This document shows, piece after piece, positions 34,736 through 55,272 of a DNA stretch of 55,272 nt. A program made the translations under genes and the position numbers. The stretch is from an uncultured Pleomorphomonas sp. (lineage in GTDB: Bacteria; Pseudomonadota; Alphaproteobacteria; Rhizobiales; Pleomorphomonadaceae). The notes below the pieces were generated by a model, which did not search any database, had not been told where the DNA came from, and saw only the letters and a list, made by a program, of their open reading frames with translations. The stretch is taken from assembly GCA_937868725.1 (NCBI GenBank), contig CALMMQ010000100.1, positions 1 to 55,272 on the forward strand, in the 5' to 3' direction. The first letter of the stretch is position 1; each line of letters starts with the position of its first letter.

Positions 34736-35251
34736 TCAGCGGTCGCTGGCTTCGACCAACGAGATCAGGCCACGGATCAGCGCTGCCGGTTCGGGCGGAC
34801 AGCCGGGAATGGTCAGGTCGACGGGGATGATATCGGATACCGCGCCGGCCACGGCATAGCTGCCCTTGAACACACCGCAATTGGCGCCACAGTCGCCCAC
34901 CGCCACCACCCACTTGGGGGCCGGCGTGGCCGCGTAGGTGCGCTCCAGCCCCTCGCGCATGTTGGCCGTCACCGGGCCGGTGACCAGCAGCACGTCGGCA
35001 TGGCGCGGCGAGGCGACAAAGCGCAGGCCGAAGCGCTCGACGTCGTAATAGCTGTTGTTGAGGGCGTGGATCTCCAGCTCGCAGCCATTGCACGAGCCGG
35101 CGTCGACCTCGCGGATCGACAGCGATCGACCGAGATGGCGCTTGGCCTTGGCCTCGAGTTCGGCCGTCAATGCCGCGATCTCGGCGTCGATGACCGGCGG
35201 TGCCTCGGTGACCGGGCGGCGGAAGAGGCCCTGGAGCAGCAGTCTGCGCAT
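34736..35251 (-). CDS. hyfI: HyfI/NuoB-like Fe-S subunit of complex-I-like assembly
   Basis: A 171-residue homologue of NuoB and of the small subunits HyfI/HycG. The four N2-type cluster ligands are visible: Cys54 and Cys57 in SCNGCE, one in GDCGANCG (with an extra Cys), and one in IPGCPPEP. It should hold the 4Fe-4S cluster next to the quinone/proton-coupling site of the large subunit. Last gene of the hyfBCEFGI operon, 12 bases after the large-subunit gene. Unlike HupS, it has no twin-arginine signal, so the complex faces the cytoplasm. Confidence 0.92.
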   Translation of the reverse strand: MRRLLLQGLFRRPVTEAPPVIDAEIAALTAELEAKAKRHLGRSLSIREVDAGSCNGCELEIHALNNSYYDVERFGLRFVASPRHADVLLVTGPVTANMREGLERTYAATPAPKWVVAVGDCGANCGVFKGSYAVAGAVSDIIPVDLTIPGCPPEPAALIRGLISLVEASDR

Positions 35252-35263
35252 GTTCGGTCTACC

Positions 35264-36820
35264 CTAGAGATCGTGCCCGGAATAGGAGCAGTTGAACGAC
35301 TTGTTGCAGAGCGGGAAGTCGGCCACGATGTTGTTCTCGATGACCGCTTCCAGAAGCGGCCACTGGAACACCGAGGGGTCGCGCAGGTGGCAGGCGTCGA
35401 TCCGGCCTTCTTCGTCGAGACGGACCCAGGCCAGCACATCGCCGCGAAAGCCCTCGACCAGCGCGATGCCTTCGACGCAATGCTCGGCCGGTTCGTTGCG
35501 CAGACCGCCGGCCTGCGGCACCAGCCGATCGGTCGAGGAGACATTGACCGGATTGCGCAGGGTACCGGCCGGCAGATGCGCCAGGATCTGGTCGATGAGC
35601 CGCAGCGACTGGGTGATCTCGTCGATGCGGACCCAGATGCGGGCGTCGACATCGCCGTCCGTGCGGGTGACGACGTCGAACTCCAGTTCGCCATAAGGGG
35701 CGTAGCCGGGGTGGCGGCGGGCGTCGAACGCCCGGCCGGACGCCCGGCCGACCGGACCGCCGGCGCCGAAGCGCTGGGCCAGATCGGGGGCAAGCCAGCC
35801 GGTGCTGACGGTGCGGTTCTGCAGTGAGGCCGTTTCGTCGTAGAGCTCGACCAGTTGCGGGAAGCGGGCCCGGATCGAGGCCAGCACCGCCCGGATCGGC
35901 GCCGGATCGGCGAGGTCGGCGGTAACGCCGCCGGGCACGACGCGGTCCATCATCAGGCGATGGCCGAACGCGGCCTTGCTGGCCCGCAGCACCTCCTCGC
36001 GCAGCATGCCGGTGTGGGCCAGCATCAGCGAGAAGGCGGCGTCGTTGCAGATGGCGCCGAAATCGCCGAGATGATTGGCCAGCCGCTCAAGCTCGGCCAT
36101 CAGGGCTCTGAGCCAGATGGCCCGCTGCGGCACGGCGACGCCCAGCGCCGCCTCGACGGCGCGGGCGAAGGCCAGCGAGTAGGCGACCGTGCTGTCGCCG
36201 GAGACGCGAGCGGCGAGGCGGGTGGCCTGCTCAAGCTCGGCGCCGGCCAACAGCGCGTCGATGCCCTTGTGGACATAGCCAAGGCGCTCTTCCAGCCGCA
36301 CGACGATCTCGCCGTTGGCGCTGAAACGGAAATGGCCGGGCTCGATGATGCCGGCGTGCACCGGACCGACGGCGATCTGGTGCAGCGGCGGCCCTTCGGC
36401 GCGCAGGAACTCATACCTGTCGCCGCTCCGATCGTGCTTGGCCGCCTGACCAAGCGGCTCGCGCACCGGCCAGCGGCCGTGGTCGAGCCAGCGGCGTTCG
36501 TCGGGCGCGCCCTCGGCGACGAGGCCGTAGAGATCGCGGATGGTCCGTTCCGGCCGCTGCCCGGCGGCATGCGTCAGGCCAACCGACGGAAAGCGTCCTT
36601 CGGGGCAGGGTAGCGACAGCACCAGCAGCGAGCCGTCGGCTTCGGTGAGTGCCAGATGCACCGTCCGCCGCTCGGCCCAGAGCGCGGCGAGCGTCGCTTC
36701 GCCGGCGGCGATGCCGAGCACAGCCTGACGCCAGGTGTCGGCGTCGACGACGATGCGCGGCCAGGGCTGCTGCTGCTCGATCGAACGCGAGACGTTGAGG
36801 AGGGCAGATCGCAAGGACAT
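35264..36820 (-). CDS. hyfG: HyfG-like large subunit without the first Ni-binding CxxC (Ehr type)
   Basis: A 518-residue fusion of a NuoC-like N-terminal domain (about 1-140) and a NuoD/group 4 [NiFe] large-subunit-like domain (about 150-518). In hydrogenase 3/4 the second domain starts with a Cys-Gly-Ile-Cys nickel motif; here the same place reads RVSGDSTVAYS, so Ser207 and Ser210 replace both cysteines. The C terminus is LCNKSFNCSYSGHDL, with two Cys five residues apart (about 505 and 511) instead of the usual DPCxxC. The protein therefore probably does not bind NiFe and belongs to the Ehr group. Start at ATG 36820 with GAGAGG before it; it follows the hyfF stop closely. Confidence 0.9.
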   Translation of the reverse strand: MSLRSALLNVSRSIEQQQPWPRIVVDADTWRQAVLGIAAGEATLAALWAERRTVHLALTEADGSLLVLSLPCPEGRFPSVGLTHAAGQRPERTIRDLYGLVAEGAPDERRWLDHGRWPVREPLGQAAKHDRSGDRYEFLRAEGPPLHQIAVGPVHAGIIEPGHFRFSANGEIVVRLEERLGYVHKGIDALLAGAELEQATRLAARVSGDSTVAYSLAFARAVEAALGVAVPQRAIWLRALMAELERLANHLGDFGAICNDAAFSLMLAHTGMLREEVLRASKAAFGHRLMMDRVVPGGVTADLADPAPIRAVLASIRARFPQLVELYDETASLQNRTVSTGWLAPDLAQRFGAGGPVGRASGRAFDARRHPGYAPYGELEFDVVTRTDGDVDARIWVRIDEITQSLRLIDQILAHLPAGTLRNPVNVSSTDRLVPQAGGLRNEPAEHCVEGIALVEGFRGDVLAWVRLDEEGRIDACHLRDPSVFQWPLLEAVIENNIVADFPLCNKSFNCSYSGHDL

Positions 36821-36830
36821 GGTAAGCCTC

Positions 36831-38300
36831 TCAACCAAGCATGCTGGCGACGTTGCGGAACCACTCGACCAGCGGGCCGGGCAGGTAGGTGCCGGCGATC
36901 AGCACCAGCAGCAGATGCACGATCAGCGGCACCATCGACGGCTGATGGCCGGCGTTGACCACGCTGGGCGTCGGCTTGCCGAAGGCGATGTTGGTGACGT
37001 GCAGCAGCAGCGAGCCGAAGGCGATGATCAGGCCGAACACCAGCAGCACCGCCAGCAGCGGATTGCGGGCGAAGGTGGAGGAGACGATCAGGAACTCGCT
37101 CATGAACACGCCCATCGGCGGCAGGCCGGCGATGGCAGCGACGCCCACCACCAGCGACCAGCCGAGCAGCGGATGGCTTTCGGTGAGGCCGCGGATGTCC
37201 GACAGGCGCTGCGTGCCCTTGACTTGCGTCACCTGACCGACGGCGAAGAAGATCGCCGACTTGGTCAGCGAATGCATGGTCATGTGCAGGAGGCCGGCGA
37301 AGTTGGCCAGCGGACCGCCCATGCCAAAGGCAAAGGCGATGATGCCCATGTGTTCGATCGACGAATAGGCGAACAGCCGCTTGATGTCGCGCCTCAGGTA
37401 CAACATGAAGCCGGCAAAGATCAGCGACAGCAGGCCGAGCGCCACCATCAGCGGCCCGGGGGCCACGGCCAGCGGATTGGCGGCCAGCAGCATCTTGAAG
37501 CGCAGCAGCGCGTAGAGCGCCACGTTGAGCAACAGGCCCGACAGCACTGCCGAAATCGGCGTCGGACCTTCGGCGTGGGCGTCCGGCAGCCAGGCGTGCA
37601 GCGGCGCCAGACCGACCTTGGTGCCGTAGCCGAGCATCAGGAACACGAAAGCGACGTTGAGCAGTTCCGGCGAGAACTTGGCGGCGTTGGCGATCAGCGT
37701 CGTCCACACCATGGCGTCGTGGCCCTCGCCGATCACCGGCCGGGCGGCCATGTAGATGAGGATGGTGCCGAACAGCGCCAGCGCGATGCCGACGGAGCCG
37801 AGGATGAAATATTTCCACGCCGCTTCCAGCGCCGCCTGGGTGCGATAGAGACCGACCATCAGCACGGTGGTCAGGGTGGCAAGCTCGACGGCCACCCACA
37901 TCAGGCCGATGTTGTTGGCGGTGAGGCCAAGGTTCATGGCGAAGGCCAGCGCCTGATACATGCCGTGGTAGAAGCGGACGTAGTGCGGCTTCAGTTTGCC
38001 CACTTCCAGCTCGTGGCCGATGTAGCTCGACGAGAAGATCGAGGTGGTCAGGCTGACGAAGGTGCCGAGCACGATGAACACGACGTTGAGGTCATCGACG
38101 AACAGGTAGCCGGCGCTGGGATCGGGCCGGTCGATCAGCAGCGTCAGGGCGAACACGAAGGTCAGCGAGGTGGCGATGACGTTGATGTGGGCGCCGAGCT
38201 TGTAGCCCGGCAGCAGTGCCAGCAGCACCGCCGCCGTCGCCGGAATGACCAGAAGCGCGTCGACGGGCGCGAACGGCAGCATGGAAAGCAAGGCGCTCAT
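36831..38300 (-). CDS. hyfF: HyfF-like proton-pumping membrane subunit
   Basis: A 489-residue antiporter-like subunit of the NuoL/M/N and MrpA/D family with about 14 membrane helices. Conserved charged helices are recognisable: WVAVELATLTTVLMV (Glu), GYGTKVGLAPLHAWLPDAHAEGPTPISAVLSG (Lys and His) and RRDIKRLFAYSSIEHMGII (Lys). It should translocate protons or sodium ions. Its stop precedes the hyfG start by 10 bases, and its start overlaps hyfE by four. Confidence 0.93.
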   Translation of the reverse strand: MSALLSMLPFAPVDALLVIPATAAVLLALLPGYKLGAHINVIATSLTFVFALTLLIDRPDPSAGYLFVDDLNVVFIVLGTFVSLTTSIFSSSYIGHELEVGKLKPHYVRFYHGMYQALAFAMNLGLTANNIGLMWVAVELATLTTVLMVGLYRTQAALEAAWKYFILGSVGIALALFGTILIYMAARPVIGEGHDAMVWTTLIANAAKFSPELLNVAFVFLMLGYGTKVGLAPLHAWLPDAHAEGPTPISAVLSGLLLNVALYALLRFKMLLAANPLAVAPGPLMVALGLLSLIFAGFMLYLRRDIKRLFAYSSIEHMGIIAFAFGMGGPLANFAGLLHMTMHSLTKSAIFFAVGQVTQVKGTQRLSDIRGLTESHPLLGWSLVVGVAAIAGLPPMGVFMSEFLIVSSTFARNPLLAVLLVFGLIIAFGSLLLHVTNIAFGKPTPSVVNAGHQPSMVPLIVHLLLVLIAGTYLPGPLVEWFRNVASMLG

Positions 38301-38959
38301 TCGCGTCCCCCGCGGAAGTCGTCGAGAACTTGGGTGTCGATGGTGTCGAAGCGTTCGCGGATGCGGAACAGGAACACGCCGATGACGATGAACGCCACCA
38401 GCACCGAGAAGGCGACGGAAATCTCCACCACCAGCGGCATGCCCTTGGCGCCGGTAGCGGCGAGGATGAGGCCGTTTTCCAGGCTCATGAAGCCGATGAT
38501 CTGGCTGATGGCGTTCTGCCGCGTCACCATCATCAGCAGGCCGAGCAGGATGACGGACAGCGCCAGCGCCAGGTCTTCGCGGGCGATCGGGTCGGCATCG
38601 GCGGCGGCCGGCAGCATCACCACCATCGACAAGGCCACCAGCATCATGCCCATCAGCATGGTCAGGCCGATGCCGCCCACCGTTTCGATGGTGCGGTGCA
38701 CGCCGAGCCGCAGCACCATGCGGTGCAGCGCCAGCGGGATCAGCGCCGCCTTGAGGATCAGGGCCAGCGCGGCGGTGACGTAGAGGTGCGGCGCGTGCTG
38801 GATATAGGCCTGCCAGGCCACCGACAGTGCCAGCACCACGGCGTGGGCGGCGAAGACGTTGAGCAGGCCGAGAATGCGGTTCTGATAGAGCATCATGAAG
38901 CTGACCAGCACCATGCCGCCGGCCAGAAGATGCGCCGCGTCGAGGGAAAAGCGTTCCAT
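38297..38959 (-). CDS. hyfE: HyfE-like membrane subunit
   Basis: A 220-residue membrane protein with about seven hydrophobic segments. It is related to HyfE of hydrogenase 4, which is in part like NuoK/MrpC: IIGFMSLENGLILAATG carries the membrane-embedded Glu of that family. It overlaps hyfF (four bases) and shares one base with the hyfC end, so the genes are translationally coupled. Confidence 0.9.
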   Translation of the reverse strand: MERFSLDAAHLLAGGMVLVSFMMLYQNRILGLLNVFAAHAVVLALSVAWQAYIQHAPHLYVTAALALILKAALIPLALHRMVLRLGVHRTIETVGGIGLTMLMGMMLVALSMVVMLPAAADADPIAREDLALALSVILLGLLMMVTRQNAISQIIGFMSLENGLILAATGAKGMPLVVEISVAFSVLVAFIVIGVFLFRIRERFDTIDTQVLDDFRGGRE

Positions 38960-39912
38960 CAGAAACTCCGCGAGACGAACAGCAGCAGCACGCCGAGCAG
39001 GCCGAGCATCAGCGCGCCGCCGACGAACTCCGGCACGCGAAACACGCGCATCTTGGCAATGGCCGTCTCGAACATCACCATCATGAAGGCGAACACGCCG
39101 AGCTTGACGAGATAGGTGGCGCCACCGATCAGCATGGCGAGCGGATCGTCGTTCACCCCGGCCATGCCCCAGGGCACGAAAATGCAGGCGATGATCGAGA
39201 TGTAGAGCAGCAGCTTCAGCGCCGCTGCCAGCTCGATGACCGCCAGATGCCGGCCGGAATACTCGAGCACCATCGCCTCGTGCACCATGGTCAGCTCGAG
39301 GTGGGTGGCCGGGTTGTCGACGGGGATGCGGGCGTTTTCGGTGAGGGCGACGATGATGAGACCGATGAGCGCCAGCCCCAGCGACACGCGCAAGGTGGCG
39401 TGCGTCACCATGAAGGTCGCCACCGCCGACAGCTGCGTCGAACCGGCCACCAGCGACACGGTGAAGAACAGCATGATCATCGCCGGTTCGGCCAGCGTCG
39501 AGAACAGCATCTCGCGCGACGAGCCGATGCCGCCGAAGGCGGTGCCGATGTCCATGCCGGCCAGCGCCAGGAAGAAGCGGGCCGAGCCGAGCAGCGCCGT
39601 GATGGCGATGAGGTCGGCGGCCCAGGAGAAGTGCAGGCCGGAGGCGAACGTCGGCACCAGCGCCGCCGCCACCCAGGTGGTGGCGAAGATGAGGTAGGGG
39701 GCGTTGCGGAACAGCCAGGTGGCGTTATCGGCCAGCACCACTTCCTTGTGAACGAGGCGATAGAGGTCGCGATAGGGCTGGACGATCGGCGGCCCCTGGC
39801 GACGGTGCAGGCGGGCCCGCACCTTGCGCGTGAAGCCGAGGAGGCCCGGAGCCAGGACCAGCACCAGCACCATCTGGAGGCCCTGGATGAAGAGCGCGTA
39901 GATCAGGCCCAT
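38959..39912 (-). CDS. hyfC: HyfC/NuoH-like membrane subunit
   Basis: A 317-residue subunit like NuoH and HyfC/HycD, with about eight helices. It has the family block QGPPIVQPYRDLYRLVHKE near the N terminus and TENARIPVDNPATHLELTMVHEAMVLEYSG, the cytoplasmic loop that contacts the quinone- or NiFe-bearing module. It anchors the peripheral subunits to the membrane arm. ATG 39912 lies 10 bases inside the end of hyfB. Confidence 0.93.
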   Translation of the reverse strand: MGLIYALFIQGLQMVLVLVLAPGLLGFTRKVRARLHRRQGPPIVQPYRDLYRLVHKEVVLADNATWLFRNAPYLIFATTWVAAALVPTFASGLHFSWAADLIAITALLGSARFFLALAGMDIGTAFGGIGSSREMLFSTLAEPAMIMLFFTVSLVAGSTQLSAVATFMVTHATLRVSLGLALIGLIIVALTENARIPVDNPATHLELTMVHEAMVLEYSGRHLAVIELAAALKLLLYISIIACIFVPWGMAGVNDDPLAMLIGGATYLVKLGVFAFMMVMFETAIAKMRVFRVPEFVGGALMLGLLGVLLLFVSRSF

Positions 39913-41918
39913 GTTGCCACCAGGAAAAGCAGGCCGACGAGCGCGGCGAAGACGAGGCTGAGATAGCTGCGGATGGTCAGGAACTGCAGCACGTTGAGCC
40001 GCTCGGCGGCGAACATCACCCAGTGCTGCAGCGGCGCGTAGACCGTCTCCCAGACGAGATCGCGCAGCGACAGCTTGAGGCGGGCCGGCCGGCTGTCGCC
40101 GGGAGGCGGCATGAAGGTCTCGATCTGGGCCGAGAAGGCAATGGGGCCGAACACCCGGCGGATCGGCTGAGCGAAACTGTCGGCGGTGTACTGGATGACC
40201 GGGCTCGGGTCGGGATAACCGCAGTCCCAGGCCGGGCCGCGCCGATGGGCGCGCGAGGCGAGGTTGTGGATGACGCGAATGGCCGCCCAACTGGCCATCA
40301 TGATGAAGAAGAACACCAGGAAGCCGGAGTAGGACGAGCGGCTTTCGGAGATCGGAATGATCGACAGCGTCGGCAACAGCGGCTGCGGCGGCATCGACGA
40401 GCCGACCAGCACGTGCGCGGCCGGACCGAAGGCGTCGAGGAACACGCCGGGAAAGACGCCGGCCACCAGGCAGAGCAGCAGCAGCGCCATCATCGCCCGG
40501 AGGCTGACAGGCTCGGCCTCGACAGCCGTTTCAGCCACTGGCGAGCGCGGCCGCGACAGGAAGGTGATGCCGAAGGCGCGCACGAAGCAGGCGCCGGCCA
40601 GTGCCGCGGCGAAGGCCAGCATGGCCCCCGACGCCGGCACCAGGAAGCGCAGGCCCCATTGCGGCAGGTTGGGGCTGATGAGAATGGCCTGCAGCGTCAG
40701 CCATTCCGATACGAAACCGTTGAGTGGTGGCAGCGCCGAGATGGCCAGACACCCGCCAAGGAAGATGTAGGCGGTCCTCGGCATGCGATGGATGAGGCCG
40801 CCGAGCTTTTCGATGTCGCGTTCGCCGGTGCCGGTCAGCACGTTGCCGGCCCCGAAGAACAGCAGGCTCTTGAACAGCGAGTGGTTGAAGGCGTGGAACA
40901 GCGCCGCCGTGGCCGCCAGCGCCGCCGGCCCGGCCATGCCGTTGGTCTTGAAGGCCAGCGCCAGCCCGAGGCCGATGAAGATGATGCCGATGTTCTCGAC
41001 CGTGGAATAGGCGAGCAGCCGCTTGAGGTCGCGTTGCAGCACCGCCTGCAGCACGCCGAGCACCGCCGACACCGACCCCATGATCAGCACCACCACCGCC
41101 CACCACCAGCTCGGCGGCCCGGCAAGGTCGAACACGACGCGGATGAAGCCGTAGACGGCCACCTTGGTCATGATGCCGCTCATCAGCGCCGACACGTGGC
41201 TCGGCGCCGCCGGATGGGCCAACGGCAGCCAGACGTGCAACGGCACCAGACCGGCCTTGGAACCGGCGCCCAGCGTCATCAGCACCAGCACCAGACCGGC
41301 GACCCACGGCAGATGGGCGCTGAGGCGCATCATCGAGAAGGCGTAATGGCCCTCGGTGCCGGCCAGCAGGCCGAAGGCCAAGAGCAGCATCATGGTGCCG
41401 AAGCTCGCCATCAGCATGTAGATGTAGCCGGCCCGGCGGTTGTCGCCATCATGATGGCTCGACAGCACCAGCGCCCACGACGACAGCGACATGAACTCCC
41501 ACGAGACCAGGAAGCCGAAGGCGTCGGCAGCCAGCACCACCAGGTTCATCGCCGCCAGAAACGCCGGATAGAACGGCAGCACCCGTCCGGGATGGTGCTC
41601 GTGCTTGCCGTATCCGAGGGCATAGACGCTGGCGACGACGGCGCCGAGATCGACGAGAATGAGGAAGAAGGACGAGAGCGCGTCGAGGGCGAAGTGAATG
41701 CCGATCCAGGGCAGACCGAAGGGCAGCGTCAGCTCGCCGTGGCTGGCGTTGCCGCCAAGCAGACCGAACAGGCCAACGCCGAGAAGCGGCAGACACAGGG
41801 CGGCCGATGCGACATAGGCCACTTTCGTCGCCAGACCGGGACGGCTGACGAGAAACGGCATGGCTATGGCGACGCCAAACAGACCTGCGATGGACGCAAG
41901 CGCAACGACGATCGGCAT
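39903..41918 (-). CDS. hyfB: HyfB-like proton-pumping membrane subunit
   Basis: A 671-residue NuoL/MrpA-like subunit with about 16 helices. Characteristic charged blocks: FLVSWEFMSLSSWALVL (Glu), GSKAGLVPLHVWLPLAHPAAPSHVSALMSG (Lys, His), RDLKRLLAYSTVENIG (Lys). The last 110 residues are a soluble segment with CGYPDPSPVIQYTADSF, typical of HyfB and HycC. First gene of the operon, so its promoter is in the gap up to 42363. Its start has only a weak ribosome-binding site. Confidence 0.93.
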   Translation of the reverse strand: MPIVVALASIAGLFGVAIAMPFLVSRPGLATKVAYVASAALCLPLLGVGLFGLLGGNASHGELTLPFGLPWIGIHFALDALSSFFLILVDLGAVVASVYALGYGKHEHHPGRVLPFYPAFLAAMNLVVLAADAFGFLVSWEFMSLSSWALVLSSHHDGDNRRAGYIYMLMASFGTMMLLLAFGLLAGTEGHYAFSMMRLSAHLPWVAGLVLVLMTLGAGSKAGLVPLHVWLPLAHPAAPSHVSALMSGIMTKVAVYGFIRVVFDLAGPPSWWWAVVVLIMGSVSAVLGVLQAVLQRDLKRLLAYSTVENIGIIFIGLGLALAFKTNGMAGPAALAATAALFHAFNHSLFKSLLFFGAGNVLTGTGERDIEKLGGLIHRMPRTAYIFLGGCLAISALPPLNGFVSEWLTLQAILISPNLPQWGLRFLVPASGAMLAFAAALAGACFVRAFGITFLSRPRSPVAETAVEAEPVSLRAMMALLLLCLVAGVFPGVFLDAFGPAAHVLVGSSMPPQPLLPTLSIIPISESRSSYSGFLVFFFIMMASWAAIRVIHNLASRAHRRGPAWDCGYPDPSPVIQYTADSFAQPIRRVFGPIAFSAQIETFMPPPGDSRPARLKLSLRDLVWETVYAPLQHWVMFAAERLNVLQFLTIRSYLSLVFAALVGLLFLVATWA

Positions 41919-42363: not shown

Positions 42364-43416
42364 TCAGCAGATGCGCGGCAACTGCTCGCCGGCCAGCCAG
42401 TCGACGATGCGGCCGCCACCGAAGCCGGTGGTCATCTGCACGAAGTGCTGATCGTCGGCGATGGCTTCGCCAATGATTGCCGCGTCGAGGCCGAGCGGAT
42501 GGCCGCGCATCGCCGCCACCAGCGCTTCGGCCGCCTCGGCTGCCACCACGGCGATCAGCTTGCCTTCGTTGGCGACATTGAGCGGATCGAGGCCGAGCAG
42601 TTCGCAGGCTGCCGCCACCTGCGGCTTGATCGGGATGGCCCGTTCGACGATGCGGAAGCCGACGTCCGACTGGTGGGCCAGCTCGTTGAGCGTCGCCGCC
42701 AGACCGCCGCGCGTCGGATCGCGCATCAGCCGTAGCGACGGGCCGGCGCAGGCGACCATGACCTCGACGAGACCGTTGAGGGCGGCGCTGTCGGAGACGA
42801 TCGCCGTTTCGAACTCCAGGTTTTCCCGGCTCGACATGATGGCGACGCCGTGGTCGCCCATCGAGCCGGAAACGATCACCTTGTCGCCGGGGCGGGCCTT
42901 GTCGCCGGAAAGGTCGATGCCGTCGGGCACGACGCCGACGCCCGCCGTCGCAATGAAGACGCCGTCGGCCTTGCCGCGCTCGACGACCTTGGTGTCGCCG
43001 GTCACCACCTTGACGCCGGCCTTGGCCGCCGCTTCGCCCATGGAATCGGCGATGCGCTTGAGATCGCCGAGCGGGAAGCCTTCCTCGATGATGAACGAGG
43101 CGGAGAGGTAGAGCGGCCTGGCACCGGCCATGGCGATGTCGTTGACCGTGCCGTGCACGGCCAGCGAGCCGATGTCGCCGCCGGGAAAGAAGATCGGCGA
43201 TACGACGTAGCCGTCGGTGGTCATCACCATGCGACCGCCGGCCGGCGTCGGGAAGCAAGCCTGGTCGTTGCCCTGTTCGAGCAGCGGATTGGCCAGCGCT
43301 TCCTTGAAGATACCGGAGATCAGGTCGGCCATGGCACGGCCGCCGGCGCCGTGGCTCATGTCGACACGGCCGTTCTTGAGATCGAGCTTGCGGCGGAAAG
43401 TCTTGGGCGAGGTCAT
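42364..43416 (-). CDS. hypE: hydrogenase expression/formation protein HypE
   Basis: A 350-residue AIR-synthase-like protein. The ATP-binding N-terminal region has HGAGGRAMADLI, and the C terminus ends in PRIC, whose terminal Cys takes the carbamoyl group from HypF and is dehydrated to a thiocyanate, the source of the two CN ligands. ATG 43416 overlaps the hypD stop (ATGA). Last gene of the hup-hyp cluster. Confidence 0.96.
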   Translation of the reverse strand: MTSPKTFRRKLDLKNGRVDMSHGAGGRAMADLISGIFKEALANPLLEQGNDQACFPTPAGGRMVMTTDGYVVSPIFFPGGDIGSLAVHGTVNDIAMAGARPLYLSASFIIEEGFPLGDLKRIADSMGEAAAKAGVKVVTGDTKVVERGKADGVFIATAGVGVVPDGIDLSGDKARPGDKVIVSGSMGDHGVAIMSSRENLEFETAIVSDSAALNGLVEVMVACAGPSLRLMRDPTRGGLAATLNELAHQSDVGFRIVERAIPIKPQVAAACELLGLDPLNVANEGKLIAVVAAEAAEALVAAMRGHPLGLDAAIIGEAIADDQHFVQMTTGFGGGRIVDWLAGEQLPRIC

Positions 43417-44570
43417 GACGGTATCCGGGCGGCCGGGCCGCTCTTCTGGTGCTGGCGGAAGCGGCCGTAGGTCCAGTGGGCGGCACAGGCGCCCTCGGAG
43501 GAGACCATGCAGGCGCCCATGGGGGTTTCGGGGGTGCAAACGGTGCCGAACAGGCGGCAGTCGGCCGGCCGCTTCTGGCCGCGCAGGATGGCGCCGCACT
43601 CGCAGGCCGGATTGTCGTCGGCGGCCACCGTCTCGACGCTGAAGCGTCGTTCGGCATCGAAACGGGCATAAGCCTCGCGCAGCTTCAGCGCGCTCAACGG
43701 TACGGCACCAAGACCACGCCATTCGAAGCTGTCGCGCAGCTCGAACACCTCGTCGCAGAGGGCGATGGCGTCGCGGTTGCCGGTCGGCGTCACGGCGCGG
43801 ATGTACTGGTTTTCGACCTCGGCCCGCTGCTCGTTGACCTGACGCACCAGCATCAGGATGGCGTGCATGACGTCGAGCGGCTCGAAGCCGGCGATCACCA
43901 CCGGCTTGCGGTACTGTTCGGCGAAGACGCGGTAGGGCTCCATGCCGATCACCGTCGACACGTGCGCCGGCCCGACGAAGCCCTCGATGGCGATCGGCGC
44001 TTCACCCGGCTCGGGCGGCATGTCGAGGATGGCCTTCATGGCCACCGGCGTCAGCACGTGGTTGCAGAAGATGGAGAAGTTGGCGAGGTGTTTCTCTTCG
44101 GCCAGCTTGAGGGCGACGGCGGTCGGCGGCGTCGTCGTCTCAAAACCGATGGCGAAGAACACCACCTGCCGGTCGGGGTTGGCCTCGGCGATGCGGATGG
44201 CATCGAGCGAGGAATAGACCATGCGGATGTCGCAGCCCTGGGCCTTGGCTTTCATCAGGCTGAGTCCGCCGGAGGCCGGCACGCGCATCAGATCGGCGTA
44301 GGTGCAGAGCGTCACCTCCGGCCGCCGGGCCAGACGGATGGCGTCATCGATGCGGCCGATCGGCAGCACGCACACCGGACAGCCGGGACCGTGGATCATG
44401 CGCACGTTGGCCGGCAGCAGATCCTCGATGCCGTAGCGCGAGATGGCGTGGGTATGGCCACCGCAGAACTCCATGAAGGCGTAGCTGCGGTCGGGTCGGA
44501 CCTCGGCGGCGATAGCGGCGGCAAGGTCGCGCGCCACATCGCCGTCGCGGTATTCGTCGACGTATTTCAT
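43413..44570 (-). CDS. hypD: hydrogenase maturation protein HypD
   Basis: A 385-residue Fe-S scaffold on which the Fe(CN)2CO unit is assembled with HypC. Typical blocks are MEFCGGHTHAISRYG, MIHGPGCPVCVLPIGRID and IGFETTTPPTA. The 4Fe-4S ligands lie in the C-terminal part, with CECGAIL, DCRLFGTVCTPETPMGACMVSSEGACAAHW. It overlaps hypC at its start and hypE at its stop by four bases each, so the three are translated together. Confidence 0.97.
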   Translation of the reverse strand: MKYVDEYRDGDVARDLAAAIAAEVRPDRSYAFMEFCGGHTHAISRYGIEDLLPANVRMIHGPGCPVCVLPIGRIDDAIRLARRPEVTLCTYADLMRVPASGGLSLMKAKAQGCDIRMVYSSLDAIRIAEANPDRQVVFFAIGFETTTPPTAVALKLAEEKHLANFSIFCNHVLTPVAMKAILDMPPEPGEAPIAIEGFVGPAHVSTVIGMEPYRVFAEQYRKPVVIAGFEPLDVMHAILMLVRQVNEQRAEVENQYIRAVTPTGNRDAIALCDEVFELRDSFEWRGLGAVPLSALKLREAYARFDAERRFSVETVAADDNPACECGAILRGQKRPADCRLFGTVCTPETPMGACMVSSEGACAAHWTYGRFRQHQKSGPAARIPS

Positions 44571-44812
44571 CGTGCGCCACCGGCGACGGCGCGGGCCGGG
44601 CCGCGCGCTTCATCCAGAAGTTCCAGCGTGCGCCGCGCTTCGTCGGGATCGACCTTGGACAGGGCGTAGCCGACGTGGACGATGACATAGTCGCCGACGG
44701 CAACGTTCTTGACCAGCGCGACCGAGATGGTCATGGCGACGCCGTCGAGGCTGATCTTGGCCATGTTGTCGGGCAGGATCTCGGTGACGAGGGCGGGAAC
44801 GGCAAGGCACAT
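44567..44812 (-). CDS. hypC: hydrogenase maturation chaperone HypC
   Basis: An 81-residue OB-fold chaperone beginning MCLAVPALV; Cys2 is the essential ligand that carries the Fe(CN)2CO group and contacts the large-subunit precursor. The YVIVHVGYALSKVDPDEA block is also conserved. GGAG precedes ATG 44812. It follows hypF by 73 bases. A second, longer paralogue (hupF) is encoded in the same cluster. Confidence 0.96.
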   Translation of the reverse strand: MCLAVPALVTEILPDNMAKISLDGVAMTISVALVKNVAVGDYVIVHVGYALSKVDPDEARRTLELLDEARGPARAVAGGAR

Positions 44813-44885
44813 GGGTCGGCACTCCTGAGGCGTCGCATCTGAAAGTGGATATCTGCCTTCATCAAATACGGCGCAAGACTGGAAA

Positions 44886-47135
44886 CTACTGCAATTGGCG
44901 GGCTAGCGCGACCTGTCCATAGGACAGACCGCCATCATTAGGTGGCAGCCGTCTGGCCATCAGCGGCTTGAGGCCGAGCACGGCGAGGGCGGCGGTGAGA
45001 CCTTCGGCGAGAACGCGGTTCATCATGCAGCCGCCGCCCAGTACCACGGTGGCCGTGCCGGTTCGGCTGGAGCCGTCGGCGGCGAGCGCCGCCAGACCAT
45101 CGATCAGCGTGCCGTGGAACAGCGAGGCGCCGAGCCGGGCATCGGGACGGAAGCGGGCGATGTGGTTGAGGAGCGGCGCAAAGGACAGCACACCGTCCTC
45201 GAGCTTCCAGCCGCCATCGAGCACTTCCGGCCCGTCGACCAGCGCCTCAAGCTCCATGGCGGCCTGACCCTCGTAGTCCTGAACCTCGCGCACGCCCAGG
45301 AGGGCGGCGACGGCATCGAACAGCCGTCCGAGCGAGGTGGTGACCAGTGTCTCGTCGCCGCCGGCGATGCGGCGGGCGAGCGGCGTTGCCAGCGGCGCCT
45401 TGGGAAACAGCGCGGCGGCGAGATTGGCCCGGCCCACCGCCACCAGCGCGCCGACACCCATGCGCCAGGGCTCGCGGGCCGCCTTGTCGCCGCCGGGCAG
45501 CGGCAAGGGCGCGAGGTGTCCGAGGCGATCGACGCGGCCGCCGTCGAGGCGGAGCATTTCGCCGCCCCAGGCGCCGCCGTCGAGGCCGAGACCGTGGCCG
45601 TCGAGCGCCAGCCCGAGTGCCGGACCGGCGAGCCGATGTTCGGCGGCCACGGCGGCAAGGTGGGCCGCGTGATGCTGAACGCGGATGACCGGCAGGCCGA
45701 GGCTTTCGGCGAACTGCGTCGAGCGATAGTCGGGGTGGAGGTCGCAGACCACCGCTTCCGGCCGGACGTCGACGATGGTCATGAGGTGGTCGACCACCTC
45801 GCGAAAGAAGCGCACCGTTTCCGCTGTGTCGAGGTCGCCGATGTGCTGGGAGACGAAGGCCTCGCGGCCGCGCGTCAGCGTCACCGTCGACTTGAGGTGC
45901 GCCCCGACGGCCAGCAGCGGCGGCCCGTCGGCGGGCAGCTCGATCGGCTCGGGCACGAAGCCGCGCGCTCGCCGCAGATAGGACGGCGCGCCGGCGATCA
46001 CCTGGGCGACGCTGTCGTCGGCGCGAACGACGATGGCGCGGTCATGAGTGACGATCAGGTCGGCGATGCCGCCGAGCCGGCGGGCGGCGTCGGCGTCGTC
46101 GATGACGAGGGGTTCACCACCGGGGTTGGCCGAGGTGGCAACCAGAATGGTGTCGTTGGCCGCCCGCCGGTCGTGATGGGCGAAATCATCGCCCCGGAGC
46201 GCGGCGAACAGCAGGTGGTGGACGGGAGCGTAGGCCAGCAGGACGCCGACGCGGCTGAGCCCCGGTGACACCGAGGGCGCCAGCACGCCGGCCCGCGCGG
46301 CCATCAGCACGATGGGACGGGCAACGGCGGCAACGAGGTCGAGCTCGGCCGCGCTCGCTTGGGCCACGGCCGCCACCGAGGCGCGGTTGGCCACCATAAC
46401 GGCGAACGGCTTGTGTTCGCGCGCCTTGCGGCGACGCAAGGCATTGACAGCTGTTTCGTTACGGGCGTCGCAGACGAGATGGAAGCCGCCGATGCCCTTG
46501 AGCGCCACGATACCGCCGGCCCGGATGGTGGCGGCGATGTCGGCGATCGGGTGGCTGAGGCGCGGTCCGCAGACGGGACAGGCCACCGGCTCGGCGTGAA
46601 AGCGCCGGTCGGCAACATCGCCATAGGCGGCGGCACAATCCGGGCACATGGGAAATTCGGCCATCGACGTCTGCCGCCGGTCATAGGGCAGGCGACGGGT
46701 GATGGTGTAGCGCGGGCCGCAATGGGTGCAGTTGACGAAGGAGTAGGCGAAGTAGCGGCTTTCAGGGTCGAACAGCTCGTCGAGGCAGGCCTCGCAGGTG
46801 GCGGCGTCCGGCACGATGCGCGTCACCGTGCGCCCGCCCTCGCTGTCGCGAATGGCAAAGCCCGTTCCCCCCAGAGGCGGCACCTCTTCGACGGCCAGCG
46901 TATCGATGCGAGCAAGCGGCGGCGCCTCGGTCCTGAGGCGGGCGAGAAATTCGGCCGTCCGGCCGCCCTCGATTTCCACCGTGACGCCGTCGGCGCCGTT
47001 GTGGACGAACCCGGCCAGCCGGCAGTCGCTGGCCAGCCGGTGTATGAACGGCCGCATGCCCACCCCTTGCACGGCCCCGTTGAGCTTGAGGCGCAGGCGA
47101 GCCACGGCGTCGGGGGGGAAGGCGGCGTCTTTCAC
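44886..47135 (-). CDS. hypF: carbamoyltransferase HypF
   Basis: A 749-residue enzyme that turns carbamoyl phosphate into the CN precursor carried by HypE. Domains in order: acylphosphatase-like (about 10-95, GVGMRPFIHRLA), two zinc-finger-type CxxC motifs (CEACLDEL with CTHCGP, CPDCAAAYG with CPVCGP, about 105-200), YrdC-like nucleotide-binding (about 205-390, GGIVALKGIGGFHLVCDA) and Kae1/TobZ-like C-terminal domain (HHAAHLAAV and LALDGHGLGLDG). The start is GTG 47135, with GAGGG nine bases upstream overlapping the end of hypB; a GTG at 47105 is a weaker alternative. Confidence 0.95.
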   Translation of the reverse strand: MKDAAFPPDAVARLRLKLNGAVQGVGMRPFIHRLASDCRLAGFVHNGADGVTVEIEGGRTAEFLARLRTEAPPLARIDTLAVEEVPPLGGTGFAIRDSEGGRTVTRIVPDAATCEACLDELFDPESRYFAYSFVNCTHCGPRYTITRRLPYDRRQTSMAEFPMCPDCAAAYGDVADRRFHAEPVACPVCGPRLSHPIADIAATIRAGGIVALKGIGGFHLVCDARNETAVNALRRRKAREHKPFAVMVANRASVAAVAQASAAELDLVAAVARPIVLMAARAGVLAPSVSPGLSRVGVLLAYAPVHHLLFAALRGDDFAHHDRRAANDTILVATSANPGGEPLVIDDADAARRLGGIADLIVTHDRAIVVRADDSVAQVIAGAPSYLRRARGFVPEPIELPADGPPLLAVGAHLKSTVTLTRGREAFVSQHIGDLDTAETVRFFREVVDHLMTIVDVRPEAVVCDLHPDYRSTQFAESLGLPVIRVQHHAAHLAAVAAEHRLAGPALGLALDGHGLGLDGGAWGGEMLRLDGGRVDRLGHLAPLPLPGGDKAAREPWRMGVGALVAVGRANLAAALFPKAPLATPLARRIAGGDETLVTTSLGRLFDAVAALLGVREVQDYEGQAAMELEALVDGPEVLDGGWKLEDGVLSFAPLLNHIARFRPDARLGASLFHGTLIDGLAALAADGSSRTGTATVVLGGGCMMNRVLAEGLTAALAVLGLKPLMARRLPPNDGGLSYGQVALARQLQ

Positions 47136-47140
47136 CTCGT

Positions 47141-48139
47141 TCAGCCCTCGGCAGCAGCCGTGGCGCGCGCCATGGCGGCGCGGGCTTCGATCCAGGCGTA
47201 GAAGGCGGCCATGCCTTCGCCCGTCTCGGCCGACACCACCAGCGTCTGCAGGTGCGGATTGACCTTGAGCGCGGCGGCGAGGCACTTGCCGACGTCGAAC
47301 TTGAGGTGCGGCAGCAGGTCGGACTTGTTGAGCAGCAACAAGTCGGCGACGGCGAACATGTCGGGGTACTTGAGCGGCTTGTCCTCACCCTCGGTCACCG
47401 ACAGCACCACCACCTTGTGGGCTTCGCCGAGGTCGAAGCCGGCCGGGCAGACGAGATTGCCGACGTTCTCGATGAACAGCAGCCCGCCCGGCTGCAGTTC
47501 GAGGGCGGCGACCGCCTGACCGACCATGTCGGCCTCGAGGTGGCAGCCCTTGCCGGTGTTGACCTGCACCGCCCTGGCACCGGCTTCGCGGATGCGGCGG
47601 GCGTCGTTGTCGGTCTGCTGGTCGCCTTCGACCACGGCGATCGGGAAGCGGCTGCCGAGGTCGGCGATGGCGCGGCAGAGCAGGGTGGTCTTGCCCGAAC
47701 CCGGCGACGACATGACGTTCAGCGCCAGTGTGCCGGTGGCGGCGAGGCGCGACCGGTTTTGCCGGGCGAGGTCGTTGTTCTTGGCCAGGATGTCGCGCTC
47801 GACCCGGATTACCCGATCAGCGGCGACGTCGGGCTGGTGCACGGCGCCAAGCGGCGGCGCATCGTGATGATGGTCATGATCGTGGTGGTGATGGTGGTCA
47901 TGATCATGATGGTGATGTTCATGATCATGGTCGTGGCTGTGCCCGTGGGCATGGACGTGCCGGTGGCTGGTCTCACCGTGGGCATGGTCGTGTTCGTGCA
48001 CATGGTCGTGCGGGTGATCGTGATCATGGGGATGGTCGTGATCATGATCGTGGTCGTGGCCGCCGTGGAGTTCCGCCGGCGTCTTGCCGTTGATCCGGTA
48101 GCCGGTGCCACCCGAGCCGCAGCCGCAATCCTTGCACAT
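47141..48139 (-). CDS. hypB: nickel-binding GTPase HypB with long His-rich region
   Basis: A 332-residue nickel-insertion GTPase. It begins with the high-affinity nickel motif CKDCGCGSG. Next comes a His/Asp-rich stretch (about residues 25-95) with 37 His by my count. The GTPase domain follows: P-loop [18 protein letters not shown], and NKSDLL. HypB delivers nickel, with HypA, to the large-subunit precursor. The His-rich part is typical of rhizobial HypB, where it stores nickel, but this one is long. The start overlaps the hypA stop by one base (TGATG). Confidence 0.97.
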
Positions 48140-48480
48140 CACTCCACCTCCAGTTCGCGAACCTTGAGTTCGTCGCCCGCCGTCATCTGCACATGGTGCT
48201 GGCCGCAGTCGGGGCAAGCCCCGAAGCGTTCGGTAAGCGGCACGGTCTTACCACAGTCGAGACACCATCCCGAGCCGGGAATTTGGTCGATGATCAGCTT
48301 TGCACCGTCTGCAATGGTGCCGTTGCTGACGGCCTCGAAACAGAACGCCATCGCTTCCGGCGCCACGTGGCCGAGCACGCCGATCTCCAGCGTCACCGAT
48401 TTGACGCGGTGGAAGCCGTGCTGCCGCGCCTCGTCCTCGATCAGTCCGACCACCCCTTCGCAGAGCGACATCTCATGCAT
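48139..48480 (-). CDS. hypA: hydrogenase nickel incorporation protein HypA
   Basis: A 113-residue metallochaperone. His2 of MHEMSLCEG is the nickel ligand. The zinc site is CLDCGKTV and CPDCGQHH, four Cys. It works with HypB to load nickel into HupL. The start overlaps the end of hupK by a few bases, so hup and hyp genes are one transcription unit. Confidence 0.96.
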
Positions 48481-51744: not shown

Positions 51745-52323
51745 TCAATGCACCGTGACGGCCGGCCGTTCGTAGGAGGCGCGGTCGATGTCGTTGCCGA
51801 GCAGCCCCTCATCGAGCGGTTCCTGCCGCGGCCGGACCTTGACGCCCCAACGGGCCAGCACGTCGACGGCCGCCTCGATGGCCGATGGCATGGCGGCGGC
51901 GACCGGCGCGGTCAACGGGCCGCCCCAGTCCTCAAGGTCGAGCGGCTGACAGCCGATCAGGGCCAGACGCTTGGGGTAGGACCCCATGAAGTCGGCCGCC
52001 GACAGCACTTCCTGGAAGCCGGTCTGATGCAGGCTCATCTTCTTGGCACCGGTGAATTTCGGCACCTCGTCGTTCTCGACGAGCTTGAGCGTCCCCGGTT
52101 CGAGGCCGTAGTCGATGGCATCGAACACCAAGAGGTAGTCGGCCTCGGCCACGGTGTTGACGAGATAGAGTCCCTGCGTGCCGCCGTCGAGGATGGTGAC
52201 GCCGGCGGGGACTTCGCACAGGCGGTGGAAGGCTTCCACCGCCCGCACGCCGAAGCCCTCGTCGGCCCACAGGATGTTGCCGATGCCGAGCACGAGGATA
52301 CGCAACGGTTCAACCGCCATCAT
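51745..52323 (-). CDS. hupD: hydrogenase maturation endopeptidase HupD
   Basis: A 192-residue nickel-dependent endopeptidase of the HybD/HyaD family. The three metal-binding residues are visible in GNILWADEGFG (Glu), FDAIDYG (Asp) and SLHQTGFQE (His). It cuts the C-terminal tail of the HupL precursor after nickel insertion, which locks the active site. ATG 52323 overlaps the hupC stop by one base; a second ATG directly follows. Confidence 0.95.
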   Translation of the reverse strand: MMAVEPLRILVLGIGNILWADEGFGVRAVEAFHRLCEVPAGVTILDGGTQGLYLVNTVAEADYLLVFDAIDYGLEPGTLKLVENDEVPKFTGAKKMSLHQTGFQEVLSAADFMGSYPKRLALIGCQPLDLEDWGGPLTAPVAAAMPSAIEAAVDVLARWGVKVRPRQEPLDEGLLGNDIDRASYERPAVTVH

Positions 52324-53054
52324 CAACCCTCGCGCTCGTCGCGGAACTGCCGCTCGCCGGAGATCATGGTCGAGATCATGGTCTGACGGCTCATGATGTC
52401 CTCGCGCACGGCGGCGTAGATGTGGATGAAAGCGAAGATGACGATCACCCACATGCCCAGATGATGGATGGTGTGTACGTCCATCGAGTTCGGCCAGATG
52501 GCGAAAACCCAGCCGAACGCCTTGGCCCACAGGCTGTCCCGCCCGGCGCCTTCGGAATAGAGCGCCCCGCCGGTGATGATCATGCCGAGATTGAACAGCG
52601 TGAACATCAGGAACATGGCGGTATGGGCCAGCGGGTTGTGACCGATGTACTTGTACGGTTCGTGTTCGAGGAACAGGTACCAGCGCAGTTCACGCTTGAC
52701 GCCACGCCACCACTTCGGATCCCAGACCGGCAGGTAGAAGATCTGACGCGAATACTTGTTGCCCCAGAACGACCAGAGAATGCGGGCCAGGAAGGCGACG
52801 GCCAGCACCTGGCCGGCGGCGAAATGGGCGAAGCGGATGTAGCCGAACACGAAACTGTCCGACGCCTCACCCGGCATGGAAGGTAGTGGCGAGCCGATCA
52901 GGTAGCCGGTCACCGCCAGAATGGTGATGCAGAGGGCGTTGCCCCAGTGCCAGAGGCGCACCGGTGCTTCGTAGACGTAGATGGACGGTCCGGAGATGAT
53001 GACATCGTCGGTGGCGTCCATCACGCCAGTCAGCATCTGTGAATCCTTGGACAT
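52323..53054 (-). CDS. hupC: Ni/Fe-hydrogenase b-type cytochrome HupC
   Basis: A 243-residue integral membrane protein with four main helices that bind two b-type haems. His residues for the haems lie in VRLWHWGNALCI, RFAHFAAGQVL and HTIHHLGMWVIVIFAFIHIY. It takes electrons from HupSL on the periplasmic side to the quinone pool. ATG 53054 follows AAGGAGG at ideal spacing. It is 31 bases after hupL. Confidence 0.96.
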   Translation of the reverse strand: MSKDSQMLTGVMDATDDVIISGPSIYVYEAPVRLWHWGNALCITILAVTGYLIGSPLPSMPGEASDSFVFGYIRFAHFAAGQVLAVAFLARILWSFWGNKYSRQIFYLPVWDPKWWRGVKRELRWYLFLEHEPYKYIGHNPLAHTAMFLMFTLFNLGMIITGGALYSEGAGRDSLWAKAFGWVFAIWPNSMDVHTIHHLGMWVIVIFAFIHIYAAVREDIMSRQTMISTMISGERQFRDEREG

Positions 53055-53085
53055 GGCGGGCCTCCTTGACTCCGGCGGACGCCGG

Positions 53086-54876
53086 TCAGCGGACGGTGAC
53101 GGTGGCCATGTCCTGGCCATCGGGCGACATGACGTGCGTCGAGCAGGCGAGGCACGGATCGAAGGAGTGCAGCGTCCTCAGGATCTCCAGCGGCTTTTCC
53201 GGATCGGCCATGGGCGTATCGAGGAGCGAAGCCTCGAAGGCGCCGATGTTGCCGGCGGGATCGCGCGGCGAGCCGTTCCAGGTCGTCGGCACGACGGCCT
53301 GATAGTTGTCGATCTTGCCGTCCTTGACCTTGATCCAGTGGGCCAGCGCCCCGCGCGGCGCTTCGGTGAAGCCGACGCCCTTGGCCTCCTTGGGCCAGCT
53401 CTCCGGCTTCCACTTGTCGGTGTTGGCGGTCGCGAGGTCGCCGGCCTTGAGGTTGGCGACAAGCTTGTCCTGGAAGTAGCGCAGCTGATGGGCGGCCCAC
53501 TGACACTCGAGGGCGCGGGCGGCGGTGCGGCCAAGCGTCGAGAACAGGGCGGTGAGCGGCAGGCCGAGGTCGGTCAGCAGCTTGTCGGCCGGTTCCTTGA
53601 ACTCCGGCTTGCCCTGGGCGTAGCCGATGATGTAGCGGGCGAGCGGTCCGACTTCGACGGCGTGACCCTTCCAGCGCGGCGACTTGATGAACGAGTACTT
53701 GGCCGCCTCGTCGAGCGCTTCGATGTTGGTCTTGGTGCCCTTGGCGTTGGGGCCGAGTTCGAAGTGCGGCTCGGTGATGCCGTCCCAGGGGTGCAGCCCC
53801 TTGGTCTCGTCCGGGTACTTGTACCAGGAATGGGCGACGAACTCCTGCACCTCGTCGGCGGCCGTCAGGTCGATCTCGTGGATCTCGTCGAGCTTGCCGT
53901 CGAGGATGACGCCGCGCGGCATCTTCAGCGAGGCGGCGGTGTAGTCGTTGGCGTGCTCGGGAATGTCGCCGTAGCTCATCACCGACTTGGCCGACAGGCC
54001 GCCGCCGTAGAGCCAGTCCTTGTAGAACGAACCGATGGCCTGGAGATCGGGCAGATAGACCTGCTCGACGAAGGTGATCATGCGGTCGATGATCGACGAG
54101 ACGAGGTTGAGCCGCTCCATGTTGACGGCGCCGACGGCACCGGTGCCGTCGAGGTTGATGGCGCAGGGCACACCGCCGACCAGCCAGTTGGGATGCGGGT
54201 TCTTGCCACCGTAAACGGTGTGGATCTTGACGATGTCCTTCTGGAAGTCCAGCGCCTCAAGATAGTGCGCCACGGCCATCAGGTTGGCCTCTGGCGGCAG
54301 CTTGTAGGCGGCATGGCCCCAGTAGCCGTTCTTGAACGGACCGAGCTGGCCGCTTTCGACGAACTTCTTCAGCCGGCCCTGCAGATCCTTGAAGTAGCCG
54401 GGCGAGGACATCGGCCAGTCGGAGATCGACTGGGCCAGCTGGCTGGTCGCCTTGGGATCGGCATTGAGCGCCGAGACGACGTCGACCCAGTCAAGGGCAT
54501 GCAGATGGTAGAAATGAACGAGGTGGTCGTGCACCTGCAGCGTCAGCTGCATGATGTTGCGGATGGTGTTGGCGTTCTCGGGGATGAGGATGCCGAGCGC
54601 GTTTTCGACGGCGCGCACCGAGGTGAGGGCGTGCGTGCCGGTGCAGACGCCGCAGATGCGCTCGGTGAAGGCCCAGGCGTCGCGCGGGTCGCGGCCCTTG
54701 AGGATGACCTCGATGCCGCGCCACATGGTGCCGGTGGAGACGGCGTTGCGGATGACGTTCTGGCTGTCGACGTTGACCTCGACGCGCAGATGCCCCTCGA
54801 TGCGCGTCACCGGATCGACGACGATGCGCTGGCCGGCGTTGTCGAGTTTGAAGCCGTTGGGGGTTTCGATGCCCAT
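53086..54876 (-). CDS. hupL: uptake [NiFe]-hydrogenase large subunit HupL
   Basis: A 596-residue group 1 large subunit that binds the NiFe centre. All four metal ligands are present: RICGVC (Cys75 and Cys78) and DPCLACSTH (Cys575, Cys578). The 15 residues after His581 are the tail that HupD removes. [10 protein letters not shown] is the N-terminal family signature. The enzyme oxidises H2 on the periplasmic face, exported with HupS by the twin-arginine system. It follows hupS by 69 bases. Confidence 0.98.
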
Positions 54877-54945
54877 GGCGATGCTTTCCTATGTCTGATG
54901 GGCCGGCGGGGCGCGAGCCTTCGCACCCGCGCGCCGGCGGGAGGG

Positions 54946-55272
54946 TCACTGTTCGTTGCGGCGATGATGGTCGTGCTTGGAGGTCAGGCGCTTGACCGCC
55001 GTCGCGGCCGAGTGCACCGCCACGCCAGCCACCACGGCGCCAGCCGCCACCAGACCGATCTGGTCGGCCGTCGCCTCGACGCCGAACTGACGGATGGTGG
55101 TCAGCCGGTCGTAGAACGTACCCTTGTCCCAGAAGCCCTCTTCCGAGCAGCCGATGCAGCCGTGGCCGGACTGGATCGGGAACGACACGCCGTCGTTCCA
55201 GCGCACCGTCGAGCAGGCGTTGTAGGTGGTCGGTCCCTTGCAGCCCATCTTGTAGAGGCAGTAGCCCTTGCG
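54946..55272 (-). CDS. hupS: uptake [NiFe]-hydrogenase small subunit HupS, C-terminal part
   Basis: The last 108 or so codons of the small subunit; the gene continues past the right edge, so the twin-arginine signal and proximal cluster are not seen. The visible part has the Fe-S ligands in [17 protein letters not shown] (medial and distal clusters) and [14 protein letters not shown]. The C-terminal membrane anchor follows ([21 protein letters not shown]) and a basic-His tail. This is the membrane-bound form that pairs with cytochrome HupC. Confidence 0.95.

Follow-up and report, generated by a model that had tools for sequence, protein, structure and literature searches.

Organisation of the six-gene block

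The window, i.e. the whole stretch of 55,272 nucleotides from an uncultured Pleomorphomonas sp. that was analysed, carries on its minus strand one six-gene block, hyfB-C-E-F-G-I, running from position 41918 down to 34736, with the following genes and features.

39903..41918, minus strand: hyfB-like antiporter-type membrane subunit, opening the block
38959..39912, minus strand: hyfC-like (NuoH-type) membrane subunit, E-channel residues kept
38297..38959, minus strand: hyfE-like membrane subunit, scoring under the curated threshold for the hydrogenase 4 membrane subunit model
36831..38300, minus strand: hyfF-like antiporter-type membrane subunit, pump residues kept
35264..36838, minus strand: hyfG-like (ehrL) large subunit; 524 aa if counted from the TTG start and 518 aa if from the ATG at 36820
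36341..36343, minus strand: E166; at the aligned position HycE has the glutamate that serves as proton donor in its active-site loop
36191..36202, minus strand: SGDS, residues 213-216, replacing the first CxxC nickel motif (by alignment)
35267..35320, minus strand: C-terminal DFPLCNKSFNCSYSGHDL (residues 507-524), replacing the DPCxxC region (by alignment) and followed by the stop
34736..35251, minus strand: hyfI-like (ehrS) small subunit

The hyfG-like product consists of a NuoC-like N-terminal part fused to a NuoD/HycE-like part. Stops interrupt the plus-strand reading of 35264-36820, the gene being on the minus strand; the residues Ser207/Ser210 and 505-511 cited in the original prediction fit a start at the ATG at 36820, and residue numbers are counted here from the TTG start, which adds 6 to that earlier numbering. 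Regarding curated models, the block products score over the cut-offs for hydrogenase-4 subunits B and F and, for NuoB, over one cut-off; they stay under the cut-offs of the hydrogenase-4 membrane subunit, NuoH and NuoD models. The six-gene set of energy-converting hydrogenase-related (Ehr) complexes, namely NuoL-, NuoH- and HyfE-type membrane subunits together with a large and a small subunit, is complete in the window.

Replacement of the nickel site

As originally predicted, serine occupies both nickel positions of the first motif, since RVSGDS aligns without gap to the RVCGIC of HycE-type proteins and places S213 and S216 on the two Cys. Likewise, the C terminus reads DFPLCNKSFNCSYSGHDL-stop in lieu of DPCxxC, with NCSYSGHDL aligned to DPCYSCTDR and S518 and G521 on the Cys pair. 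Cys is absent by alignment from all four nickel-ligand positions of the window large subunit.

These substitutions were followed in a first set of 81 sequences (the window and 80 homologues from GTDB genome contigs, 57-74% identity) and in a full set of 139, which adds 58 homologues from 398 sampled Pseudomonadota genomes; 13 of the 152 aligned large subunits were excluded as non-Ehr (NuoD, CooH, HycE or diverged) before counting, and three rows (L003, L004 and L085) duplicate others. In the first set, S213 is found in 80/81 sequences, and D215 and S216 in 81/81, a degree of conservation that chance could not produce. Across the full set, D215, R465, K513, S514, N516, G521 and D523 are present in all 139 Ehr large subunits, N512 and E166 in 138 each, S213 in 136, S518 in 134 and S216 in 127. 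With the substituted residues nearly invariant across 139 sequences, the change at the nickel site is, on alignment grounds, an organised replacement and not decay. In HycE, the active-site-loop glutamate is the proton donor and the canopy aspartate, Asp529, appears strictly conserved, according to the passages drawn upon (PMC9474812). This canopy position is Asn516 in 139/139 Ehr sequences, which could also point to a block in the usual route of protons.

All 81 sequences of the first set, as well as those printed of the larger alignment, terminate at residue 524, which corresponds to HycE Arg537 in the ungapped alignment from Cys531, and 5/5 FHL-type proteins extend 32 residues past this end. 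HycE is processed at the Arg537 position. As the CooH-like hydrogenase of the window's genome (L002) ends at the same place as Ehr, the missing C-terminal extension alone is not decisive.

The original prediction also pointed to two retained cysteines near the C terminus. In the alignment, an Ile stands opposite C511 and the Pro of DPCxxC opposite C517; neither is thus a left-over nickel ligand. C511 is present in 98/139 sequences and C517 in 125/139; C517 occurs without C511 in 33, C511 without C517 in 6, and both are missing in 8. The CX5C arrangement was consequently rejected as an active pair, the two residues being lost independently, and the idea of a left-over or obligate Cys pair is given up. 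A pairing of C264 with C517 (both in 124 of the 139, neither in 8, discordant in 7) was likewise rejected as co-variation, 7 of the 8 sequences with neither forming one clade (support 0.995) and the 5 with C517G, which are scattered, keeping C264. Of the proposal that a new site has arisen at the old active centre, the Cys part thus falls, and the part based on the polar SGDS segment, joined by N512, K513 and N516, is plausible.

Assignment to Ehr and the HypD test

The window large subunit is a group 4 homologue without both CxxC motifs, which is the criterion for Ehr, and it lacks the four Cys ligands in two CxxC motifs that characterise group 4 [NiFe] hydrogenases. In the tree, the 139 Ehr sequences form a single clade (support 0.905) separate from FHL, CooH and NuoD, the trees containing fetched sequences only and L143 being omitted. 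HyfH, HycH and HycI-type genes, named by NCBIfam on one locus (L137), are present in 5/5 FHL-type loci and in 0/139 fetched Ehr loci, except for the window's HupD, which falls in the HycI cluster, in stretches that are often short.

HypD is required to build the NiFe cofactor. An Ehr large subunit is encoded in 63/398 sampled Pseudomonadota genomes, 4 of which (G144, G195, G198 and G242) are without a fetched large subunit; G144 was counted on identity, its match being partial and lying at the end of a contig. HypD was found in 23/63 of these genomes versus 10/10 FHL-type genomes (5 verified by motif, 5 assigned by score alone), and of the 26 Ehr genomes with a listed completeness of 100, 15 are without it. 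This dependence on HypD, expected of a group 4 hydrogenase, thus fails in 40/63 Ehr genomes. That the complex could be a true hydrogenase with unusual metal ligation is very improbable: its fold and active-site-loop Glu are as in HycE, and HypD is somewhat more frequent among Ehr genomes than among the rest (23/63 versus 70/335, Fisher p = 0.009, kinship ignored), but no Cys stands at the four ligand positions in the window and most carrier genomes do without HypD. The view that this is an Ehr complex and not an H2 enzyme is upheld by the lost ligands, the HypD counts and the missing HyfH, HycH and HycI-type genes; as far as sequence can assign it, the complex is securely Ehr in kind.

Cluster, pump subunits and predicted fold

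By alignment, HyfI C54, C57, C121 and C151 are the ligands of the proximal [4Fe-4S] cluster; they are conserved in 124/124 sequences, with the hydrogenase-type CxxC spacing. The Lys, Glu, His and E-channel residues are kept at 95% or more in HyfB (n=92), HyfF (n=125) and HyfC (n=96), and these conserved pump residues are mostly common to FHL. The six-gene block has no gene for a ferredoxin-like relay subunit, so that a carrier would contact the HyfI cluster directly. Given that the six genes are contiguous in 79/139 loci (most of the others being truncated because the stretch is short or interrupted by gaps in gene calling) and that many flanks are short, a relay subunit may also sit elsewhere. 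One Ehr locus (L064) has a HydN/HycB-like ferredoxin-type gene in its stretch.

The closest fold of the predicted large subunit is HycE (7z0s_E, TM 0.83), followed by E. coli complex I NuoCD. In the AlphaFold single-chain model, the loop 144-171 and most of 496-518 at the C terminus have pLDDT <50, and the active-site geometry from this model was therefore abandoned.

Genomic neighbourhood and distribution

Upstream of the block, the window contains further hydrogenase-related genes.

42364..48217, minus strand: hypE, hypD, hypF and hypB, upstream neighbours of the block
51745..55248, minus strand: uptake [NiFe] hydrogenase, with HupD-type protease, cytochrome b, large subunit and the end of the small subunit

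The window hyp genes fit the maturation of the uptake hydrogenase and are not part of the Ehr complex. The juxtaposition with a genuine uptake hydrogenase, put forward from this DNA, holds in the window and is not general, hypE adjoining the block upstream in 8 of the roughly 90 Ehr loci whose upstream side is visible. Between these genes, an ORF at 48473-49747 (minus strand), overlapped by a longer plus-strand ORF, gives weak matches to NiFe large-subunit families; we take its product to be HupK-like. Besides, the window's genome encodes complex I NuoD elsewhere and another large subunit of the group 4 type that has both CxxC motifs (G000:C67:28179-29228, plus strand), presumably CooH-like.

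Clustering of the neighbours returned HTH regulators as the recurrent ones, the remainder reflecting lineage synteny. Cluster 5, from 38 loci with L020, L022 and L023 among them, is a short, conserved XRE-type regulator some 80 aa long; cluster 7, from 15 loci mostly of family f39, is an XRE-cupin regulator. Each cluster was named from one representative by Pfam. Both are nearly always located immediately upstream of hyfB, and the cluster 5 gene is likely a regulator of the Ehr operon. The window block is without it, hypE occupying that place. The Ehr neighbours are mainly regulators and revealed no substrate, carrier or partner enzyme.

The latter observation bears on the possibility that Ehr works with a formate dehydrogenase or CO dehydrogenase encoded elsewhere. 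Such a complex has been proposed for Margulisbacteria (PMC6349859), and hyfBCEFGI adjoins CODH in Ca. Nitrospira nitrosa (PMC5596200), as far as the parts of these papers drawn upon go. However, neither a formate nor a CO dehydrogenase cluster recurs among the Ehr neighbours, which makes this association distinctly unlikely.

Other neighbours are restricted to particular lineages. A SulP-family transporter gene lies on the same strand downstream of hyfI in L022, L025, L028 and L035, and upstream of hyfB in L079 and L081; these loci belong to Competibacteraceae/Contendobacter and Methylocystis, and a link to anion or bicarbonate uptake is possible. In three genomes of one genus (L121, L151 and L152), the gene for a pyridine nucleotide-disulphide oxidoreductase-family flavoprotein begins no more than about 10 bases from the hyfI end (L121:9051-10457, plus strand). 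Ehr large subunits of about 60-62% identity are also found on large rhizobial plasmids (records H1-H15), where those annotated are called NADH-quinone oxidoreductase subunit C or nickel-dependent hydrogenase, which is misleading.

A match to RuBisCO was obtained in 110 genomes, of which 95 passed the score cut for true RuBisCO; it is encoded in 37/63 Ehr genomes versus 58/335 others, kinship ignored. Outside family f39, 14/32 Ehr genomes encode it, and the window's genome has none. As kinship was not corrected for, the RuBisCO-Ehr association is a lead only.

A diverged clade in family f16

Family f16 belongs to the window's class, and 62/80 of its genomes gave a match to the large subunit of locus L140, which is diverged; ordinary Ehr is included in this count. 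We infer that f16 is Acetobacteraceae, since the best named match of two members, L055 and L082, lies in Acetobacteraceae MAGs; against this, L183 shares 90% identity with an Afipia protein, and others are nearest to unclassified MAGs. The 20 f16 loci fetched, mainly from the top of the L140 match list, comprise 5 ordinary Ehr, 5 intermediates (L169, L171, L172, L182 and L184) and 10 without the pocket residues, bringing the pocket-less total to 13 (L140-L142, L167, L168, L170, L173-L175, L178-L180 and L186). The L140 operon lies as follows.

L140:8375-15167, minus strand: diverged L140 operon

The 13 pocket-less large subunits form one clade (support 1.0), nested among 20 family-f16 sequences that group together (0.962) inside Ehr (0.953 for the whole, with one inner node at only 0.686); in a tree without the intermediates, L140-L142 are sister to Ehr. 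The diverged upstream genes hold the B, C, E and F places, but their scores against the window proteins lie around or under the detection limit, and no Pfam or NCBIfam model matched the L140 membrane subunits. Across 12 diverged operons (L175 was omitted from the membrane-subunit table, its operon being mis-called), aligned together with the intermediates, the tabulated residue cells matching the window are 2/120 for HyfB, 15/156 for HyfC and 10/156 for HyfF, at a distance where the alignment is uncertain; in ordinary f16 Ehr, the figures are 50/50, 64/65 and 63/65, respectively. The four HyfI cluster ligands are visible in 12/13 diverged operons, no HyfI having been found in the remaining one, L186. 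The dN/dS between L141 and L142, about 0.2-0.4 depending on the gene and based on few changes, suggests that selection still maintains the diverged genes. One intermediate, L182 (G470:C109), has kept SGDS, its HyfB having lost E308, H342, K350 and E405 and its HyfC E192, E212 and E217; the same genome carries an ordinary Ehr operon, L181.

This clade weighs on the reading of Ehr as a module for ion or pH homeostasis whose soluble arm would be mainly structural or regulatory, without steady redox turnover. The antiporter-like subunits and the SulP-type genes that adjoin the operon in Competibacteraceae-type and Methylocystis loci agree with it, and such a role has been suggested for Methylacidiphilum in the passages drawn upon (PMC6688271). 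Yet a module of this type would not be expected to keep an invariant pocket and cluster ligands in 124/124 sequences, and in f16 the cluster ligands outlast the pump residues, the opposite of what it predicts; it is unlikely.

Proposed mechanism

The reading preferred here is that the complex would be a redox-driven H+ pump, with electrons moving between the HyfI cluster and a substrate held in the re-modelled polar pocket (probability about 0.5). A soluble carrier would exchange electrons directly with the HyfI cluster, which would in turn reduce or oxidise a small polar substrate in the old nickel cavity, putatively lined by S213, D215, S216, N512, K513, N516, S518, R465 and E166. This reaction would be coupled to H+ movement through HyfC, HyfF and HyfB, and it might also run in the reverse direction, the proton motive force driving electrons uphill. 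Points against this reading are Asn516 at the canopy position, neighbours that reveal no substrate, carrier or partner enzyme, the low pLDDT around the presumed pocket, a possible relay subunit outside the block and the f16 clade, whose operons persist with nearly all pump residues lost.

A minimal quinone oxidoreductase, in which electrons would pass from a soluble donor through the HyfI cluster to quinone in the nickel cavity with H+ pumping as in complex I, is rather unlikely. Many Ehr hosts are aerobes, which suits it, as do the next-best folds, those of E. coli NuoCD, and the fact that complex I is likewise without the four nickel Cys and ends at the same position. The quinone-binding His and Tyr positions of NuoD are nevertheless Glu166 and Gly214, the canopy Asp is Asn516 and HyfI bears CxxC in place of the adjacent Cys pair reported for complex I in the passages drawn upon (PMC7684303).

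Beyond the redox-driven pump itself, a broader and more tentative proposal, doubtful as it stands, is that Ehr may constitute a separate enzyme class of the superfamily, with a charged pocket (D215, K513, N516 and E166) and its own cluster-driven reaction, the small-subunit cluster being defended longest. If so, the longest-defended feature would be this cluster and not H2 chemistry nor, in one family, even ion pumping, and the f16 clade would be a natural experiment parting the redox role of the complex I superfamily from the pump. Since the signature is fixed, the operon has one predicted cluster and some lineages keep the pump residues where others do not, the role of a complex I scaffold that uses neither nickel nor NADH can be tested in ordinary laboratory bacteria.

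Comparison with known systems

Ehr complexes without nickel motifs are already in print and widespread, so that the kind is known and the window is a further member. They have been described in Sulfobacillus, Nitrospira, ammonia-oxidising archaea and Margulisbacteria, and by name in Geobacter and Methylacidiphilum; the same six genes appear as hyfBCEFGI in Cupriavidus, where C. necator H16 has them as H16_A2196-A2201 (PMC2864759), and, as a non-hydrogenase, in Acidithiobacillus, all according to the portions of the literature drawn upon. In those portions, the function is called unknown (PMC4378227, PMC10284858, PMC12342949, PMC2864759, PMC7735108, PMC6688271), the nearest group is disputed between 4f and 4a (PMC10284858, PMC10432482), and one paper classes the Nitrospira version as a group 4 hydrogenase. 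The published complexes (ehrABCDLS in Methylacidiphilum, and those of Geobacter, Nitrospira and Sulfobacillus) resemble the window in their six-gene content and in a large subunit without nickel motifs, a likeness drawn from their descriptions, the SGDS / NKSFN signature being known from the 139 sequences compared here. Neither the residue signature, the HypD test nor the diverged f16 clade was met in the freely accessible literature searched, and within that scope the papers listed for a term search contained neither NKSFN nor SGDS as a string.

FHL and hydrogenase-4 (HycE, HyfG; group 4a) are the best match to Ehr in sequence and fold, and share with it the B, C, F, G and I subunit types, the active-site-loop Glu and the cluster spacing; they differ by their nickel ligands, C-terminal peptide and HyfH, HycH and HycI-type genes, all missing from Ehr. 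Complex I (NuoB, CD, H, L/M/N) resembles Ehr in its lost nickel ligands, C-terminal position and kept pump residues, whereas in Ehr the quinone His and Tyr positions of NuoD are E166 and G214, the canopy Asp is absent, there is no NADH module and HyfI has CxxC instead of the adjacent Cys pair of the complex I cluster (PMC7684303, in the passages drawn upon).

The MBS sulfane sulfur reductase of P. furiosus offers, from the same passages, the precedent of a nickel-less hydrogenase relative working through its proximal cluster (PMC7684303). Unlike Ehr, it keeps 2/4 of the large-subunit Cys; its cluster has three Cys, its chamber is hydrophobic and its arm is of the Mrp type. Neither the two Cys at nickel positions nor the three-Cys small-subunit cluster by which MBS is recognised is found in Ehr, with its putative polar pocket and four cluster ligands.
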